A DNA stretch of 39,296 bases from Gemmatimonas sp. (GTDB lineage Bacteria; Gemmatimonadota; Gemmatimonadetes; Longimicrobiales; Longimicrobiaceae), in the NCBI GenBank assembly GCA_009380025.1, contig WHSP01000023.1, forward strand, positions 1 to 39,296, in the 5' to 3' direction. The notes under the pieces are model-generated. The model was not told the DNA's origin, ran no database searches, and saw nothing but the letters and a program-made list of their open reading frames with translations. This document shows positions 20,882 to 32,350 of the stretch, in pieces. The position numbers were made by a program, and so were the translations under genes. Every line of letters begins with the position of its first letter. Position 1 is the stretch's first letter.

Positions 20882-21583
20882 TCATGTCTCGATCCGCAGA
20901 TGGGCGAGCTGTTCACGCAGCTCCCCTCGCGCTCGGTGAATGTAGGTCTTCACGGTGCCGAGAGGCACCTCCATGATCTCCGCAATCTCTTCGTATGGCC
21001 TTCCTTCCACGTGCCGTAGAAGGATCGCCGTCCGATACTCCGGCCGGAGCCGGGCGATCGCCGTCTCGATCTCCTCGCCGAGCTCCTTCGCCTCGAGCAA
21101 CTCCTCGGGGGATTCATCTCCCGAAGCGACGGCGATACGGGAAGATTCCACCTCTTCGGAGGTTCGCGCATTGCGCGAGCCGTCGAGGGATATTGTATCC
21201 AACCCCTTCTTCCGCAATGTGTCGATCGCAAGATTGCTCGCAATCTTGAAGATCCAGCTCGAGAACTTGTACTTCGGATTGTAGCTCTCCAAACGGTTGA
21301 ACACTTTGACGAAGGTCTCCTGGGCGAGATCCTCGGCGAGCTCGCGATCGCGGACCATTCGATAGACGAGCGAAAATACCGGCCGTTGGTAGCGATCCAA
21401 CAGCTCCCGGTAGGCCTTCTCGCTTCCGGACCGCGCGAAGGCTACCAGCTCGTGATCGGTCGAATGGAGCAGATCCAAAGCGTTCAACAGAAATCCCGGT
21501 GGGCGCCCGAGCGCACTACGCCGAGAGAGTTCGCGAGGTTTCAGAAGCATCCTGCGGGAGGGCTCGTCTTGCTCACCCCCCAC
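20882..21583 (-). CDS. ECF (sigma-70 group 4) RNA polymerase sigma factor
   Basis: The protein (up to 233 residues) has sigma region 2, with RYQRPVFSLVYRMV and the core-binding/-10 segment DLAQETFVKVFNRL, then KFSSWIFKIASNLAIDTLR. It also has region 4, with LRPEYRTAILLRHVEGRPYEEIAEIMEVPLGTVKTYIHRARGEL shape as helix-turn-helix for the -35. There is no region 1 or 3, which defines the ECF group. The first in-frame start is GTG at 21583, but no candidate start has a good Shine-Dalgarno, and the family-like part begins around residue 36. It is the first gene of the minus-strand cluster and faces menG across about 60 bp. Confidence 0.9.
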   Translation of the reverse strand: MGGEQDEPSRRMLLKPRELSRRSALGRPPGFLLNALDLLHSTDHELVAFARSGSEKAYRELLDRYQRPVFSLVYRMVRDRELAEDLAQETFVKVFNRLESYNPKYKFSSWIFKIASNLAIDTLRKKGLDTISLDGSRNARTSEEVESSRIAVASGDESPEELLEAKELGEEIETAIARLRPEYRTAILLRHVEGRPYEEIAEIMEVPLGTVKTYIHRARGELREQLAHLRIET

Positions 21584-21646
21584 GGCACGGATAGCTTCCG
21601 AGCCAATTCAGTGTTCGGCTCGTCCAGCCCGAAGGCGATCGTCGCG

Positions 21647-22375
21647 ATGACGCTCCGTTCCAGCGCCCTCCCGTCGGACGAGGAGAAGGCGGCACAGGTG
21701 CGCCGCATGTTCTCCTCGATCGCGCCGCGCTACGATCTGCTCAACCACCTGTTGTCGATGAACGTCGACCGTTGGTGGCGCCGCAAAGCGGTGGATCGCC
21801 TCGGCTGGGAACGGGAGCCCACGGGCACGTACCTGGACAACTGCGCGGGGACGCTCGACTTGTCGATCGAGCTCGCTCGCCGCCCGGGCTTCGCCGGCAC
21901 CGTCGTCGGGAGTGACTTCGCCTTCCCGATGCTTCGGATCGGGGAGGAGAAATCTTCGGGCCATCCCATCGAGGCGATCTGCGCAGACGCCCTTTCCCTC
22001 CCGTATCGTGCCGAAAGTTTCGACGGAGCCACGATCGGTTTTGGGATCCGCAATGTCGCAAATCTGGACACAGGACTCGGCGAGCTTCACCGCGTGCTCC
22101 GGCCGGGTGCCCGAATCGTCGTCCTCGAGTTCACCACGCCCGCCTGGAAACCGTTTCGGGCCATCTACTTCTATTACTTTCAACGGGTCCTCCCGTTCAT
22201 CGGCAAGCTGGTTTCGAAACATGGTTCAGCGTACAGCTACCTCCCGGAATCGGTTCTGCGCTTCCCGGAGCCACCCGAGTTGGCAGCGCGACTCGAGGGA
22301 GTAGGGTTCGTCGATGTCGGTTGGACCCGACTTTCGGGCGGTATCGTCGCCCTTCATTGGGGGAGACGGTCATGA
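21647..22375 (+). CDS. menG: Demethylmenaquinone methyltransferase
   Basis: The 242-residue SAM-dependent enzyme belongs to the UbiE/MenG family, which methylates the quinone ring in the last step of menaquinone synthesis. It starts with the usual VRRMFSSIAPRYDLLNHLLS signature. The SAM-binding motif I appears as DNCAGTLDLSIEL instead of the commoner D-x-x-x-G-T-G-D. GFGIRNVANL, LRPGARIVVLEFTTP and the C-terminal SYLPESVLRFP region all fit MenG. The ATG at 21647 gives the family N-terminus; upstream in-frame codons would overlap the sigma gene on the other strand. Its stop overlaps the next ATG (ATGA). Menaquinone rather than ubiquinone is favoured because no ubiquinone-specific hydroxylase genes are nearby. 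Confidence 0.9.
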   Translation: MTLRSSALPSDEEKAAQVRRMFSSIAPRYDLLNHLLSMNVDRWWRRKAVDRLGWEREPTGTYLDNCAGTLDLSIELARRPGFAGTVVGSDFAFPMLRIGEEKSSGHPIEAICADALSLPYRAESFDGATIGFGIRNVANLDTGLGELHRVLRPGARIVVLEFTTPAWKPFRAIYFYYFQRVLPFIGKLVSKHGSAYSYLPESVLRFPEPPELAARLEGVGFVDVGWTRLSGGIVALHWGRRS

Positions 22376-22641
22376 TCCTCAACCTGCTTTCGAGCGCCCT
22401 GGTCTATCTATTCGTCCTCTGTTGCATCGTGTCCGGTGGCCTTCAGGTCCTTGCCTGGTCGCGGCATGCGGTGGAAGGCGTTTCGGTATCGATCCGGGCC
22501 CTCTGGAGTCCCGAGGGGGTGTTCGATGAAATCGGTCTCCGACAGATACGGGTTGCAAGGGGTCTTTTGACCCTTGGAGGGATCGCATACCTCACGTACG
22601 GGACGTTGCTCGTGATTTCGCGGGCCGGTGGCGGCGGGTGA
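22372..22641 (+). CDS. Unknown small membrane protein in quinone operon
   Basis: The 89-residue protein is not recognised. It has two predicted membrane helices, LLSSALVYLFVLCCIVSGGLQVLAW near residues 4-28 and GLLTLGGIAYLTYGTLLVI near 64-83. They are joined by a polar segment with WSPEGVFDEIGLRQIRVARG. The ATG overlaps the menG stop by four bases and has GGGAG upstream, so coupling to menG is clear. ubiD follows 94 bp later. Its place suggests a membrane partner in quinone synthesis, but nothing in its sequence proves it. Confidence 0.75.
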   Translation: MILNLLSSALVYLFVLCCIVSGGLQVLAWSRHAVEGVSVSIRALWSPEGVFDEIGLRQIRVARGLLTLGGIAYLTYGTLLVISRAGGGG

Positions 22642-22735
22642 TCGCGCGACGAGGTTGCGGGGGCGCGATCTCGGCTCGGCGCCGCCGGAGGATCGACCCC
22701 CGCTCGCCGTTCGGGTTGGCGATCGGGGCAGCGGA

Positions 22736-24229
22736 ATGACGACGATGCCGCCGTTTCAGAACTTACGCGAGTTCCTGGAGCACCTCGAGCGTTCGGGCGA
22801 GCTCGTCCGGATTCGCCGGCCAGTGTCCGTCGATCTCGAGATGGCGGAGATCGCGGATCGGGCAATGAAGCGCCCGGGCGGCGGACCCGCACTCCTCTTC
22901 GAGCATGCGGTGCAAATGGATGGGTCGCGGAGCCCGATACCCGTCGCGATCAACGTCTTCGGTTCCTGGAGTCGGATCACGGCGGCGTTGGCGGTCGACG
23001 ACCTCCAGGAACACGCCGACCGGATTCGAGAACTTCTGAAACCGGACGTCCCCAAGGGTCTCTGGGCCAAAGTCCAGATGCTGCCGAAGCTGGCCGAGCT
23101 CGCGAAGGTCCCACCGAGGAAGTATCGCGGAACGCCTCCCTGCCAGGAGGTCGTGCTGGAGACGGGTAACTTCGACCTGACCCGTCTCCTTCCGGTTCTG
23201 AGAACCTGGCCGCAGGACGGCGGACCCTTCATCACAATGCCGATGGTGATGACGCGCGATCCGGACGGGGGCCCACAGAACGTCGGCATGTACAGGATGC
23301 AGGTCTTCGGGCCCGACACGACCGGCATGCACTGGCAGCAACACAAAGGAGGTGCCGCCCACTACCGTGCCTGGAAGCGGAGCGGTCAGGGTCGGATGCC
23401 GGTCGTCGTCGCTCTGGGGGGCGATCCGGTGACGATGTACACGCCGACGGCCCCGCTTCCACCCGGGATAAGCGAGTTCCTGTTCGGGGGTTTCCTTCGT
23501 CGGCAGCCGGTGTATACCGCTACCGCCCTTTCCGCGGATCTCGAGGTTCCGGCCGAGGCGGAGATCGTTCTCGAGGGGTACGTCGATCCCGCCGAGCCGA
23601 TGGGCGTCGAAGGGCCGTTCGGTGACCACACCGGCTTCTACACCCTCGAAGACGACTACCCCGTCTTCCATGTGACGACCGTGACGATGCGGAAGGAGCC
23701 GATCTATCCGGCCACTCTCGTCGGACGACCGCCGGTCGAAGACGTCTATCTCGGTGGCGCGACGGAGCGGATCTTCCTCCCGCTTGCCCAGCTGACGATG
23801 CCCGAGATCGTCGACTATCACATGCCGCCCGAAGGAGTCTTCCACAACCTTGTGTTCGTTTCGATCCGAAAGGAATTTCCCGGACAAGCGTACAAGGTGA
23901 TGAACGGTCTGTGGGGGATGGGTCTCATGTCCCTGGCGAAGGTGATCGTCGTCGTGGACGATTGCGTGGACGTCCAGAACACCCAGGAAGCCTGGTGGTA
24001 TGCGTTGGGGAACATCGATCCGGAGCGGGACGTTCGCTTCGCGCGCGGTCCGGTAGACGATCTCGATCACGCGTCTCAGCACGCCTCGTTCGGCAGCAAG
24101 ATGGGGGTTGACGGGACTCGGAAGTGGCCTGAGGAAGGATTCACTCGACGCTGGCCAGACCTCATCGAGATGTCCGACGAGATCAAGGATCGTGTCGATG
24201 GCTATTGGAGCGAGCTCGGCATCGAGTGA
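22736..24229 (+). CDS. UbiD-family prenyl-FMN-dependent decarboxylase
   Basis: The 497-residue protein has the length and signatures of the UbiD family: NLREFLEHLERSGELVRI at the N-terminus, the central ETGNFDLTRLLPVLRTWPQDGGPFITMP, and the MEGPFGDHTGFY-type segment (here VEGPFGDHTGFY) carrying catalytic Glu. Such enzymes remove an aromatic carboxylate using prenylated FMN made by UbiX. With MenG, a UbiA-type prenyltransferase and UbiX around it, its substrate is most likely a menaquinone precursor, as in the futalosine route, rather than 4-hydroxybenzoate. That choice is inference. The ATG at 22736 gives the family N-terminus with GGGGCAGCGGA upstream. Confidence 0.9.
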   Translation: MTTMPPFQNLREFLEHLERSGELVRIRRPVSVDLEMAEIADRAMKRPGGGPALLFEHAVQMDGSRSPIPVAINVFGSWSRITAALAVDDLQEHADRIRELLKPDVPKGLWAKVQMLPKLAELAKVPPRKYRGTPPCQEVVLETGNFDLTRLLPVLRTWPQDGGPFITMPMVMTRDPDGGPQNVGMYRMQVFGPDTTGMHWQQHKGGAAHYRAWKRSGQGRMPVVVALGGDPVTMYTPTAPLPPGISEFLFGGFLRRQPVYTATALSADLEVPAEAEIVLEGYVDPAEPMGVEGPFGDHTGFYTLEDDYPVFHVTTVTMRKEPIYPATLVGRPPVEDVYLGGATERIFLPLAQLTMPEIVDYHMPPEGVFHNLVFVSIRKEFPGQAYKVMNGLWGMGLMSLAKVIVVVDDCVDVQNTQEAWWYALGNIDPERDVRFARGPVDDLDHASQHASFGSKMGVDGTRKWPEEGFTRRWPDLIEMSDEIKDRVDGYWSELGIE

Positions 24230-24284
24230 GGTGGGAAGACAATTGGTGGGGCGGTGAAGTGTACCTACACGGAAGAAACGAAGA

Positions 24285-25193
24285 GTGACGGATCAACACA
24301 CGCTCGAAGGTCAGACACTGCGCGGCAGAGGACGTGTCGTCGACTATTCGAACTTCGTCAAGCTACCTCACACGGTCTTCGCCCTACCGTTCTGCCTCGT
24401 CGGGGCGATCCTGGCCTCGTATGACACGCCTGTTCGAGGGACGGATGTCGTTTGGATTCTGCTCGCGTTCACGAGCGCGCGTTTCTCCGCAATGGGCTTC
24501 AATCGCATCGTAGACCGGGTCTTCGACGCGCAGAACCCTCGCACCAGAGGACGCGAGATACCCAGCGGGAAGCTGACCCCTACCGAGGCGGCGGCTGCCG
24601 TTTCCATCTCCAGCGTGGTCTTCCTCGTCAGCGCAGGGGCCCTGAACCGTGTCTGCCTCCTCCTCGCCCCCTTCGCGCTTCTCTGGGTCTTCTTCTACTC
24701 GTACACGAAGCGGTTTACCAGCTGGAGTCATCTCGTCCTGGGCGTTGCCCTCGCCATCGCTCCGGTCGGCGCATACCTCGCCGTTGCCGGACGCTGGAGT
24801 GAACCGCGCACTGCGCTGCTCGCTCTTGCCGGCGCAGTGCTCTGCTGGGTCGCCGGCTTCGACATCCTTTACTCGCTCCAGGACGAGGAGTTCGATAGGG
24901 AGCAGCGTCTTCATTCGGTGCCCGCTGCCCTCGGAGCCCGAGGTGCGATCTTTGTCTCAAGGCTCCTGCACTTCGGTTCTCTGCTGTGCTTCATCGCCTC
25001 CGCCACGCTCTTCGGCGGGGCGGGACCCGTCTTCTACGTGGGCGTCGGAGTTATCGCGCTGATGCTCACCTATGAGCAGAGCCTCGTTCGAGCAGACGAC
25101 CTCTCGCGGATCGACGCGGCCTTCTTCACTATCAATGGTGCGATCTCCGTCCTCTTCTTCCTGATGGTTCTGGGGGAGCGCCTCCTGTCGTGA
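24285..25193 (+). CDS. UbiA-family polyprenyltransferase
   Basis: The 302-residue integral membrane protein attaches a polyprenyl chain to an aromatic acid. Both aspartate motifs are present: GFNRIVDRVFDAQNPRT (N-x3-D-x3-D) near residues 70-86 and SLQDEEFDREQRLHS near 200-215. About eight hydrophobic helices span the rest. The start is GTG at 24285. The stop overlaps the ubiX GTG by four bases. It fits the MqnP-like or 4-hydroxybenzoate type; the neighbourhood with menG favours menaquinone synthesis. Confidence 0.92.
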   Translation: MTDQHTLEGQTLRGRGRVVDYSNFVKLPHTVFALPFCLVGAILASYDTPVRGTDVVWILLAFTSARFSAMGFNRIVDRVFDAQNPRTRGREIPSGKLTPTEAAAAVSISSVVFLVSAGALNRVCLLLAPFALLWVFFYSYTKRFTSWSHLVLGVALAIAPVGAYLAVAGRWSEPRTALLALAGAVLCWVAGFDILYSLQDEEFDREQRLHSVPAALGARGAIFVSRLLHFGSLLCFIASATLFGGAGPVFYVGVGVIALMLTYEQSLVRADDLSRIDAAFFTINGAISVLFFLMVLGERLLS

Positions 25194-25789
25194 CCGCGTC
25201 GAATGAGGGGCCGATCACCCTGGGAATCACCGGGGCCTCCGGCGCTCCCTACGCCGTCCGCCTCCTCCGGGCCCTCAACGACAGTAGGACGCCGACGAGG
25301 TTGATCATCTCGAGTTATGGAATGCGACTCCTGGCGGAGGAGCTCGAGATCGGCGGAATCGACGAGCTTCGCGCGGCTACTGGCGATTGGAGCCGCGTCG
25401 AGCTCTACGAGCCGGGGGATCGCGGGGCCACTCCGGCCTCCGGTTCTGCCCCGTCGGCCGGGATGGTGATTTGCCCGTGCTCGATGGGAACCCTGGCGTC
25501 GATCGCGGCAGGAACTTCACGGAATCTCGTCGAGAGGGCCGCGGACGTTGCCTTGAAGGAGCAGCGTTCGCTTATTCTAGTCCCGCGCGAAACGCCGCTT
25601 TCGACGATCCACCTCGAGAACATGTCCAGGCTGGCGCGAGCCGGCGCCACCATCCTGCCGGCCTCGCCCGGTTTCTATCATCGCCCGTCCTCCGTCGACG
25701 ACCTGGTCGATTTCATTGTCGCCCGCATCATGGCCCACTTGGGGCTTCCCTTTTCGATGAATCGCTGGAAGAGCGGCGAGGTCAGCTGA
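25190..25789 (+). CDS. ubiX: UbiX-type flavin prenyltransferase
   Basis: The 199-residue protein makes prenyl-FMN, the cofactor required by UbiD. The FMN-binding GITGASGAPYA near residue 12-22, the CPCSMGTLASIAAG segment, and the C-terminal LVPRETPLSTIHLENMSRL and MPASPGFYHRP-like (LPASPGFYHRP) segments are all present. GTG at 25190 overlaps the ubiA stop. It supplies the cofactor for the UbiD protein two genes upstream. Confidence 0.94.
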   Translation: MTASNEGPITLGITGASGAPYAVRLLRALNDSRTPTRLIISSYGMRLLAEELEIGGIDELRAATGDWSRVELYEPGDRGATPASGSAPSAGMVICPCSMGTLASIAAGTSRNLVERAADVALKEQRSLILVPRETPLSTIHLENMSRLARAGATILPASPGFYHRPSSVDDLVDFIVARIMAHLGLPFSMNRWKSGEVS

Positions 25790-25819: not shown

Positions 25820-26338
25820 GTGACAGCGGCGTCGATGAACCCGTCGAATCCGATCAGGTTGGGGTTGATCTCCGACACCCATGGCCTGCTGCGGCCGGAA
25901 GTGATCGAGGCGTTCGACGGAGTCCAGCAGATCCTTCACGCCGGGGACGTGGGAGATCCGGATATCCTGACGGAATTGGAAGCCATTGCCCCCGTCACGG
26001 CCGTCTGGGGAAATACTGACGGGTGGAACCTGCGGAGTCAGTTGCCCGAGACCGCCGACCTGGAGCTCGGTGGGGTACGGGTACGGGTCCTACATGGTCA
26101 TGGATTCGGTCGCCCGGTGGCGGACGCGGTCGCAGAGGCCAATCGAGATGTGGGGATGGTGGTGTTCGGCCACTCCCATCGTCCGGAGGTGGAGCGGGTC
26201 GGGGCGGTCCTCGCAGTGAATCCCGGAAGCGCCGGACCCGTGCGGTTCTCGCTGCCGGTTACCGTGGCAATCGCGGAGATCGGGGCTGGGGCGTCGGTCA
26301 CGGCGCGCCTGGTAAAGCTTGTTCGACGGGAGGGCTGA
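25820..26338 (+). CDS. YfcE/MJ0936-type metallophosphodiesterase
   Basis: The 172-residue protein is a small calcineurin-like phosphoesterase with an intact metal site: ISDTHG (D-x-H), HAGDVGD, WGNTDG, LHGHGFG and FGHSHRP. Members of this group are Mn2+-dependent phosphodiesterases of poorly known natural substrate. GTG at 25820 has GGGAGG five bases upstream; ATG at 25835 is the alternative. It follows ubiX by 30 bp, so it may be in the quinone operon. Its 3' end overlaps the convergent lipoprotein gene by 41 bp. Confidence 0.9.
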   Translation: MTAASMNPSNPIRLGLISDTHGLLRPEVIEAFDGVQQILHAGDVGDPDILTELEAIAPVTAVWGNTDGWNLRSQLPETADLELGGVRVRVLHGHGFGRPVADAVAEANRDVGMVVFGHSHRPEVERVGAVLAVNPGSAGPVRFSLPVTVAIAEIGAGASVTARLVKLVRREG

Positions 26339-27380
26339 TCGTCGACGAAGCCGAGTCGCCGGCCTGTACTTCGGACTGCGTGAGGCTATCGGGCACCGCG
26401 GTGGTCGTGTCGACCGCGGCTTCGGTCGGCTCTCCCAAGCCAGCCAGGGTCACGATTGGAACCTCCGGCGGGGCTCCGAAACGCAGGGGGACAAAGCTGT
26501 AGCCGATGCCGCAGTTCACGACGAGTGTGCTGCCTTCCAACTGGAAGAGCCGCTCGACTCCCTCGACCGCAGCATCCGGGAACGTGGTCTCCCGGAGTCG
26601 GGCGAGGCTTCCGGACCCCGGAACAGGGACGTCGCCACAAAAGGTGTCGGAGACGAGCACGATCGGGTACCGATTGTTCGGCAGGCCCCTGGCCAGCCCG
26701 GGTGTGTGCATGAGAAGGAGCGGAGTTCGTCCCGGCACACCAAGCGTTGCCAGAATATAGGCTCGTTCGCCCGCGCCCATGTTGAGGAGCTCGGGGTCGG
26801 CCCCAGCAATCCAGGCGGTGTCACCGTTGATGACCAGAGGTGCGGCGGCGTTCCGAAGGACTCGCACTCCGACCGATTGCAGCGCCGCCGCGATGTTGGC
26901 AGCGATGGAGTCACTCCGGATGTCGCGTTCCCCCAGAACGGCATAGACGGGACGATCGCGAATCGGCGCGAAGACGCGCTGCAGGAGTCCGAAGTCCGTT
27001 CCTTCGACCAGGAAGTCGCCAAGCAACACGATCAGGTCCGGATTGGCTTCGAGCGCCATTTGCACGGCCGCCGTCGCGACTTCCTCGTTCCCGTTCCAGC
27101 CTCCCAGCCGAGGATCCGCGATGATCGCGATCTCGATCCCCTCCCATCCGTCCGGCAGGCCAGCCGCCTCGAGCTCCAGGCGCGGGCTCCAGACATTTTC
27201 GGCCGGGGACGCCCCGTAGAGCTCTTCCGGTGAGATGCTGTCGAACGGTGCGCTCGCTCCTTCCATGGCTCGGGCGGCCTCGCCCGCCTCCGCAGGCTCG
27301 ACGTCCCCGCGGCACCCGCCGAGGGTGGGTAGCGAGAGCGCGACGAGAACGCACATTCGAATCGGCTGTCGTGGCCGCAT
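26298..27380 (-). CDS. Metallophosphoesterase-like lipoprotein, degenerate active site
   Basis: The 360-residue product starts with a lipoprotein signal (LPTLGGC, lipid cysteine at residue 23), an alanine/glutamate-rich linker, and then a calcineurin-like phosphoesterase fold (about residues 80-290) in the YkuE style. The active-site motifs have been replaced. D-x-H is Asp89-Pro-Arg91, GNHD is Gly150-Glu-Arg-Asp153, and GHTHGGQ is SDTFCGD at 244-250. Only GD (121-122) and His225 remain. Catalysis therefore seems lost, while the fold and lipid anchor remain. A TTGACA/TATAGA promoter lies upstream. The start may be residue 9 (ATG at 27356). Confidence 0.82.
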   Translation of the reverse strand: MRPRQPIRMCVLVALSLPTLGGCRGDVEPAEAGEAARAMEGASAPFDSISPEELYGASPAENVWSPRLELEAAGLPDGWEGIEIAIIADPRLGGWNGNEEVATAAVQMALEANPDLIVLLGDFLVEGTDFGLLQRVFAPIRDRPVYAVLGERDIRSDSIAANIAAALQSVGVRVLRNAAAPLVINGDTAWIAGADPELLNMGAGERAYILATLGVPGRTPLLLMHTPGLARGLPNNRYPIVLVSDTFCGDVPVPGSGSLARLRETTFPDAAVEGVERLFQLEGSTLVVNCGIGYSFVPLRFGAPPEVPIVTLAGLGEPTEAAVDTTTAVPDSLTQSEVQAGDSASSTISPPVEQALPGAP

Positions 27381-30949: not shown

Positions 30950-31537
30950 CGAACTCCTTCGTTTCACGAAATCTCACGGAGCGGCTGGCGCGGGCGGGGA
31001 GTCCTCCGGCGGAGGTTGCGGGTCCGCGCGCGGCCGCGACGGCTGAAGACGGAACCATAAAAAATGGGGCGTAAAGTACGATTTCGCAAGGCATTCACTC
31101 CATTTTCCAGCCGGCTGACGGGTCGTCGGGCGACCCGCTACCGATGAAACCAGCTGCCAGCTTTTCGGCCGCTTCCAGACCCGGACGCCGGGTGTAAGGC
31201 GGCCAGCGACCGGGTCGAGGAGATCACCATGTCATCGAGATGGATCCGGTACGGTACCGATACGCGTCTGAAGTTCCTGCCGCGACTCCCCTCACCTAGA
31301 CTGCCCCTCGTTTCCCGATCGGCCCCAACCGCTCGCGTTCCGGGCGACTTGGCGGCGTGCGTCGATCCTGTTGCCGTTGGGCCCGTGCGCTCCGCGTGGT
31401 TGGCCACCGGCCCGATGCAACAGTCTTCACGTGTGGGATTCGTAACGGTGCGGAGTTCCGGTCGGGTCATCACTCGCTGTCGAGACGCAGCACGCGGACC
31501 GATACGGATCCACTACTTCTTTACTCGAAGGTTTTGC
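30950..31537. other. Divergent intergenic region, palindrome-rich
   Basis: This 588-bp gap lies between two divergent genes. It holds a perfect palindrome CAGCCGGCTG (31108-31117), a hairpin GGGTCG/CGACCC (31120-31136) and an AT-rich patch (31064-31090) that may carry the quinoprotein promoter, though I cannot fix its elements. A frame starting at 31229 with a good GAGGAG leads in phase into the SusC/PhoD chimera. Its arginine/proline-rich translation does not look like a protein. Confidence 0.45.
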
Positions 31538-32350
31538 ATGAAACGAATCAGGAAGGCAAAGGGATGGATAGTTGCGGCGAGCCTGATTGCTGTCCTCGCG
31601 GTACCGGGGATGACGTGGGCGCAGGAGACAGGTCGAATCACAGGTACGGTCACGACCGACAATGGCAGGCCGCTTTCGGGAGCCATCGTCAATCTTGCCG
31701 ACCTCAACATCGGCGCCCTCACCGATTCGGAGGGCGGCTACACCCTCGACGCTGTTGCGGTGGGACCGCAGACCATCACCGTGCGCATGATCGGTTACGG
31801 GGAGGCATCGACTTCGGTCACGGTCGTCAGCGGACAGGCCGTGCCTGCCGACCTGCAGCTATCGGCCGTGGCGGTCGAGATGGAAGGTGTGGTTGTCGTC
31901 GGGTATGGGACGCAGACGAGAGGGGCGGTGACGAGCGCGGTTGGCAGCGTCGATGGCCAGGAACTGGAGACCGTACCGACGACGAATTTGTCGAACGCAA
32001 TCGGCGGCAAACTCACCGGGGTGATGTCGGTCAATTCGAGCGGAGAGCCAGGAGGTGACGGGGCCACGCTCCACATCCGCGGCAGCCATACGCTCAACGA
32101 CAACAGTCCCCTGATCACCTCGGGTGGCGACGGTACCCCGATGAGGGAGGATGGCGAACTGATCCTGGAGCACAACCCTCATATCCCCTACTACAATTCG
32201 CAGCGCGGTTATGTCCGTGCGACGCTGACGCCCGAGCAGTGGACGAGTGACTTCCGGATCGTGCCCTCCGTAGCGAGCGAGGGGAGCCCGATCCATACTG
32301 ACGCCTCGTTCGTGGTCGAAAACGGACGGCCGGGTGTGCAGCGGGCCTGA
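31538..32350 (+). pseudogene. SusC-type receptor N-terminus fused to PhoD C-terminus
   Basis: This in-frame 270-residue chimera joins two unrelated genes. Residues 1-192 are the start of a SusC/RagA TonB receptor: signal peptide (AVPGMTWAQ), CarboxypepD_reg domain, the VVVVGYGTQTRGAVTSAV motif, and the first half of the plug (LHIRG). From about residue 193 (near 32114) the sequence switches to the last 78 residues of a PhoD-type alkaline phosphatase (SGGDG, NPHIPYYNSQRGYVRATLTP, then the FVVENGRPGVQRA end). No barrel and no phosphatase active site remain. The precise deletion left the frame open, so a product could still be made and exported, but it is best read as a gene-fusion relic. Confidence 0.78.

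Follow-up and report, generated by a model that had tools for sequence, protein, structure and literature searches.

An intact lipoprotein gene at a conserved locus

The window analysed here, a 39,296-nucleotide stretch of contig WHSP01000023.1 (assembly GCA_009380025.1, Gemmatimonas sp., Longimicrobiaceae), carries on its minus strand, a strand that the initial annotation did not give, a gene (26298..27380) whose 360-aa product is a lipoprotein with a calcineurin-like phosphoesterase domain that has degenerated, as judged from the ORF and its translation, the orthologues and an AF2 model. Such a protein raises the question of whether it is an enzyme in decay, an enzyme with altered chemistry, or a fold kept by selection for another role. 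The reading frame was intact (360 codons, ATG at 27380) and its codon-position GC (0.72/0.52/0.76) was similar to that of the neighbouring genes; the frame is therefore in use as a gene. A consensus promoter claimed in the initial annotation did not hold up: the promoter search gave a single 9-of-12 match (27724-27696), which lies over 300 nt upstream and is at chance level (0.4 expected).

A convergent YfcE-type phosphodiesterase gene (25820..26338, plus strand; TIGR00040 match and synteny) overlaps the lipoprotein gene tail-to-tail by ~40 bases. It is the final gene of a conserved menaquinone cluster, whose UbiE, UbiD, UbiA and UbiX genes (21386..25789, plus strand; profile matches and synteny) mark the conserved locus. 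An operon-based function drawn from this cluster was rejected, because the lipoprotein gene is convergent and an M28-type peptidase gene can intervene in the relatives examined. Thus the cluster is a positional marker rather than an operon partner, and the lipoprotein gene forms no operon with its adjoining genes. The recurring order in Longimicrobiaceae (L112-L126) was menaquinone cluster, YfcE, M28-type peptidase, lipoprotein, UvrC-like GIY-YIG protein, Fpg glycosylase and PurD, of which the window genome lacks the part upstream of the lipoprotein gene, including the UvrC-like and Fpg genes. When ORFs of the neighbourhoods were clustered in six frames, antisense frames in the GC-rich DNA blurred the picture.

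Homology and predicted fold

The protein begins with a signal peptide and a lipobox, LGGC (27312..27323, minus strand), as initially annotated; the lipidated Cys23 was invariant in the 16 aligned orthologues, which identifies the family as bacterial lipoproteins. Among curated profiles, the best match was NCBIfam YaeI (NF008460; E = 1.3e-12), at a score (47.8 bits) well short of the equivalog cut-off of 188 bits. The Pfam Metallophos profile (PF00149) was missed narrowly (19.5 bits, against a gathering threshold of 21.5), while a typical orthologue, L006, passed it at 34.0 bits and another, L020, had no Pfam match of any kind. A weak match to LpxG (NF033458; 18.1 bits, E = 0.0014) was far below the cut-off of 350 bits.

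PDB searches by single sequence and by profile returned no useful homologue, and a comparison of folds was therefore adopted. The AF2 model, built on the alignment of 16 orthologues, had a core pLDDT over 90, and its phosphoesterase-fold domain (residues 60-318; 26427..27203, minus strand) was at about 90 or above over most of its length. The Foldseek PDB matches listed were phosphoesterases (Mre11, Rv0805, TT1561, PptH and LpxH; probability 1.00), consistent with the calcineurin-like beta-sandwich fold. Thus the window protein is truly homologous to calcineurin-like phosphoesterases of the YaeI/YkuE type, and the fold named in the initial annotation was borne out by the profile match, the model and the Foldseek search alike.

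Beyond the domain lies a low-complexity C-terminal tail (26301..26426, minus strand), which had low pLDDT and appears disordered. In the alignments it contains a short conserved DSL-type motif (D331, L333), part of an N-V-D-S-L-I-Q type motif kept in most orthologues, which is possibly a docking peptide.

The former metal site in the window copy

The ligand set of an active metallophosphoesterase comprises D-x-H, GD, GNHD, LxxH and GHxH, with the GNHD His (position 152 here) as the usual acid. Motifs read initially from the translation were found in place, namely ADPR (88-91), LLGDF (119-123), LGERD (149-153), LLLMH (221-225) and SDTFCGD (244-250). Motif I is D89-P90-R91 (27108..27116) where D-x-H is canonical; D89 is invariant, and position 91 is Q, H, N, R or Y in the orthologues. 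Motif II, G121-D122 (27015..27020), keeps the bridging Asp in the orthologue alignment, and the second-metal ligand H225 (26706..26708) is also kept. Motif III is G150-E151-R152-D153 (26922..26933) in place of G-N-H-D, and motif V is SDTFCGD (26631..26651) in place of GHTHGGQ, with F247 and C248 inside it (all on the minus strand). The site therefore reads D-R, D, E-R, H, D-F. Since three of the seven canonical metal ligands remain (D89, D122 and H225), the active site called erased in the initial annotation is partly rather than fully erased.

The initial annotation had further placed the changes exactly on the catalytic positions. Among the columns conserved in 105 canonical relatives, the window copy was changed at 5 of 8 catalytic columns and 11 of 42 others (Fisher one-sided p = 0.058), suggesting a marginal trend rather than exact clustering.

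A lineage-restricted family with graded ligand loss

A single-protein scan of named genomes returned no relatives; the profile scan did find them. By profile search, orthologues were present in 20 of 21 genomes of Longimicrobiaceae (Gemmatimonadota), the sole negative being a genome that is 72% complete. Their identity was 33-46%, and beyond them profile scores dropped from over 220 bits to under 160 bits, with no further match above 160 bits outside the group in the class sample. In a broad genome scan by profile, every high-scoring match came from a Longimicrobiaceae genome. The orthologues formed one group in the tree (branch support 100), and most adjoin the UbiE-UbiD-UbiA-UbiX-YfcE cluster where the examined stretch reaches it.

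Had the window copy alone been changed, its orthologues should carry the canonical site; this case fails because none of the 17 aligned orthologues has the full set of seven ligands plus catalytic His, so the loss is family-wide. H247 was lost in all 17, with Phe instead in 15 of them, Leu in L016 and Ala in L020. Only L003 retained the GNHD His; three orthologues had the GNHD Asn, four the DxH His and 12 H245, and D122 and H225 were each present in 16. The two former motif III positions had high entropy (2.3 bits at 151 and 2.1 bits at 152); they are free to vary rather than re-specialised. At one end of the range stand L013 and L014, which retain six of the seven ligands and miss H247 alone; at the other stands L020 (genome G004), the longest branch of the orthologue group, which has lost D122, N151, H152, H225 (now Ala), H245 and H247 and nevertheless retains the lipobox, D89, both conserved cysteines (see below), R277 and a confidently predicted phosphoesterase fold (both AF2 models, of the window protein and L020, were built from the 16 related orthologues, and the L020 model is thus not independent). 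That L020 persists is an argument for a retained function independent of metal, unless L020 itself has switched role.

The same distribution bears on a one-metal protein, in which the second-metal site would have survived or been rebuilt to serve a weak hydrolase of altered chemistry or a metal-dependent binder. Metal binding could persist because most orthologues keep D122, H225 and H245, with D, H, N or T at 151 (so that the four positions read D/N/H/H in some), L013 and L014 being close to complete; in the window copy D122, E151, H225 and D245 are all possible ligands. Moreover, an Arg at the GNHD His position, which the window protein has in common with LpxH, is functional in that enzyme (PMC6286764), so R152 alone is no proof of inactivity. 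However, L020 dispenses with D122, H225 and H245 while its other conserved features stay, Gly replaces H245 in L003 and L004, and variation is free at 151 and extends to 152, the place of the usual acid. We therefore consider a one-metal protein unlikely.

An invariant cysteine pair at the former metal site

Four replacements were both derived and conserved: F247 (15 of 17 orthologues), C248, R277 (26550..26552, minus strand; Gly in the outgroup) and C290 (26511..26513, minus strand), of which the last three were invariant. The expectation that replacement residues would be conserved across orthologues is thus borne out at these positions. It does not extend over the whole former site, because the former ligand positions 91, 151 and 152 vary.

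The cysteine pair, which was absent from the initial annotation, was present in all 27 orthologue rows (some genomes entered twice), and the only other cysteines in the orthologues were the lipobox Cys and an occasional one in the signal peptide. In the AF2 model C248 and C290 lie at or just past the C-terminal ends of two strands, 240-247 and 284-290, which formerly carried the GHTHGG and VNRG loops. In an exported protein a sole conserved cysteine pair usually marks a structural disulfide. The mature chain has no cysteine other than C248 and C290 in any orthologue checked, which suggests a putative disulfide at the former metal site, a reading drawn from the alignment and the model. Among the 105 canonical relatives C290 was found in L038 only, which has C248 as well, while C248 without C290 was found in four other outgroup sequences.

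Absolute conservation at the former metal pocket, placed there by sequence and secondary structure, would also fit a redox-active thiol-disulfide or a Cys2 metal-binding site, which would make this a new type of redox or metal protein of the envelope, built on the phosphoesterase fold. Yet the pair does not form a CxxC motif, and in L038 (6001-6765) both cysteines accompany a near-intact catalytic site (GNHD, GHTHCGQ). Such coexistence with an enzyme site suggests a structural bond, and we regard a redox or Cys2 site as very improbable.

Purifying selection and divergence of the window copy

In three close orthologue comparisons (93-96% identity), dN/dS was 0.10-0.14 by NG86, the only estimator used since YN00 gave implausible dS on two pairs. 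These few close pairs, for which dN/dS is reliable, do not include the window copy. In distant pairs dN/dS was 0.3-0.8 with unreliable dS, and the window copy against L003 and L004 gave 0.31-0.37 with dS near saturation. Loss of catalytic residues common to the orthologues, together with purifying selection in the close pairs, defines a pseudoenzyme family; this, and its presence in 20 of 21 genomes, supports the earlier proposal of a selected role over random decay. The family is real and lineage-restricted. It has no name in the Pfam and NCBIfam libraries searched, and is new in detail though of a kind already known.

With L020 set aside, 48 columns were invariant in the other orthologues, and the window copy departed at 9 of them; the corresponding figures were 3 of 42 for L003, whose branch length is similar, and 1 of 40 for L004. 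Because the window copy has changed at more such positions than its sisters have, its lineage may have undergone some relaxation or extra change. Taken further, the window copy might be in decay because its genome has ceased to need what the family does, a reading in line with these departures, with the additional ligand changes R91 and D245 and with the partly rearranged neighbourhood, from which the upstream genes of relatives are missing. On the other hand, the 360-codon frame, the lipobox, both cysteines, R277 and the codon usage are all intact, and the dN/dS values to L003 and L004 also speak against decay, though dS is near saturation. Decay of this copy is thus quite unlikely.

A putative lipid-anchored binding protein

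We favour as the probable explanation a lipid-anchored, exported pseudo-phosphoesterase specific to Longimicrobiaceae, with a disulfide-stiffened pocket and a role as partner-binding scaffold or receptor. The ancestor would have been a YkuE/YaeI-like metal-dependent phosphodiesterase. Its two-metal centre would have been dismantled: nearly all orthologues have Phe in place of H247, the first-metal His of GHxH, residues of the GNHD and DxH motifs were released to vary, and catalysis would have been lost. A C248-C290 bond would probably stiffen the emptied pocket, whose face most likely binds a partner, be it a protein or an envelope lipid or sugar that bears phosphate, while the lipid would hold the protein to the membrane. 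Of the membrane role first proposed, the non-catalytic part is supported by the ligand losses; a sensor or scaffold is what the protein may be.

A bolder form of this proposal, which we hold only tentatively, makes the family the bacterial counterpart of VPS29: an envelope phosphodiesterase turned into a lipoprotein receptor or scaffold that is locked by a disulfide and encoded by a core gene whose catalytic residues are drifting towards near-complete loss, as in L020. Annotating these core proteins as active metallophosphoesterases is probably wrong. Moreover the orthologues, mostly at one conserved locus, range from those that retain six of the seven ligands to one with hardly any left. Such graded loss, with the apparent disulfide replacement, makes a usable series for the transition from enzyme to binding protein.

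Comparison with known systems

To our knowledge, pseudoenzymes on the phosphoesterase fold are mainly eukaryotic (VPS29 and the DNA polymerase B-subunits), and we know of no cysteine pair in VPS29. A literature search for "metallophosphoesterase" together with "pseudoenzyme" found no paper. The retromer subunit VPS29 uses the retained fold to bind proteins; it binds metal weakly, and no activity has been found for it (PMC3101248, PMC7539009); unlike the window protein it is eukaryotic and cytosolic and still binds metals in the expected geometry, and it serves as an analogy of working only. The eukaryotic polymerase B-subunits keep a catalytically inactive calcineurin-like domain as a regulatory subunit (PMC4996933), but they are replication proteins from another branch of the superfamily. 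LpxG and LpxH, the UDP-diacylglucosamine hydrolases recovered by the weak profile match and by Foldseek respectively, take part in lipid A synthesis as active, metal-dependent enzymes, whereas the window protein is exported and lacks several ligands.

The YkuE/YaeI-type phosphodiesterases (NF008460; PF00149) have a homologous fold and motif scaffold. The window protein differs from them by i) the absence of several metal ligands and the catalytic His, in keeping with its low score on their profile; ii) its lipid anchor; iii) the extra cysteine pair; and iv) the disordered tail. Within the YkuE-like enzymes, a subclade whose first-motif His is replaced by Gln, here called DxQ-GMW (L022, L027, L038, L158, L181-L185 and L204), was found in Gemmatimonadota, on a Planococcus plasmid and in a Geodermatophilaceae MAG. 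It was the nearest clade to the orthologues in the tree (joint branch support 92) and has in common with them Trp at 95 and, for most orthologues, the first-motif Gln. Unlike the orthologues, it retains GNHD, LxxH and (G/A)HTH, and has the cysteine pair in L038 only; where read, its N-termini resemble membrane helices rather than lipoboxes. Because this clade keeps the rest of the site, its sequences suggest that the first motif may have been where ligand loss started, although His is present at that position in four orthologues.

Elsewhere in the window, the ORF at 31229-32350 (plus strand) has a SusC/RagA-type receptor N-terminus at residues 137-296 joined to the C-terminal part of a PhoD alkaline phosphatase at 296-372, and looks like a deletion-derived fusion or gene debris.
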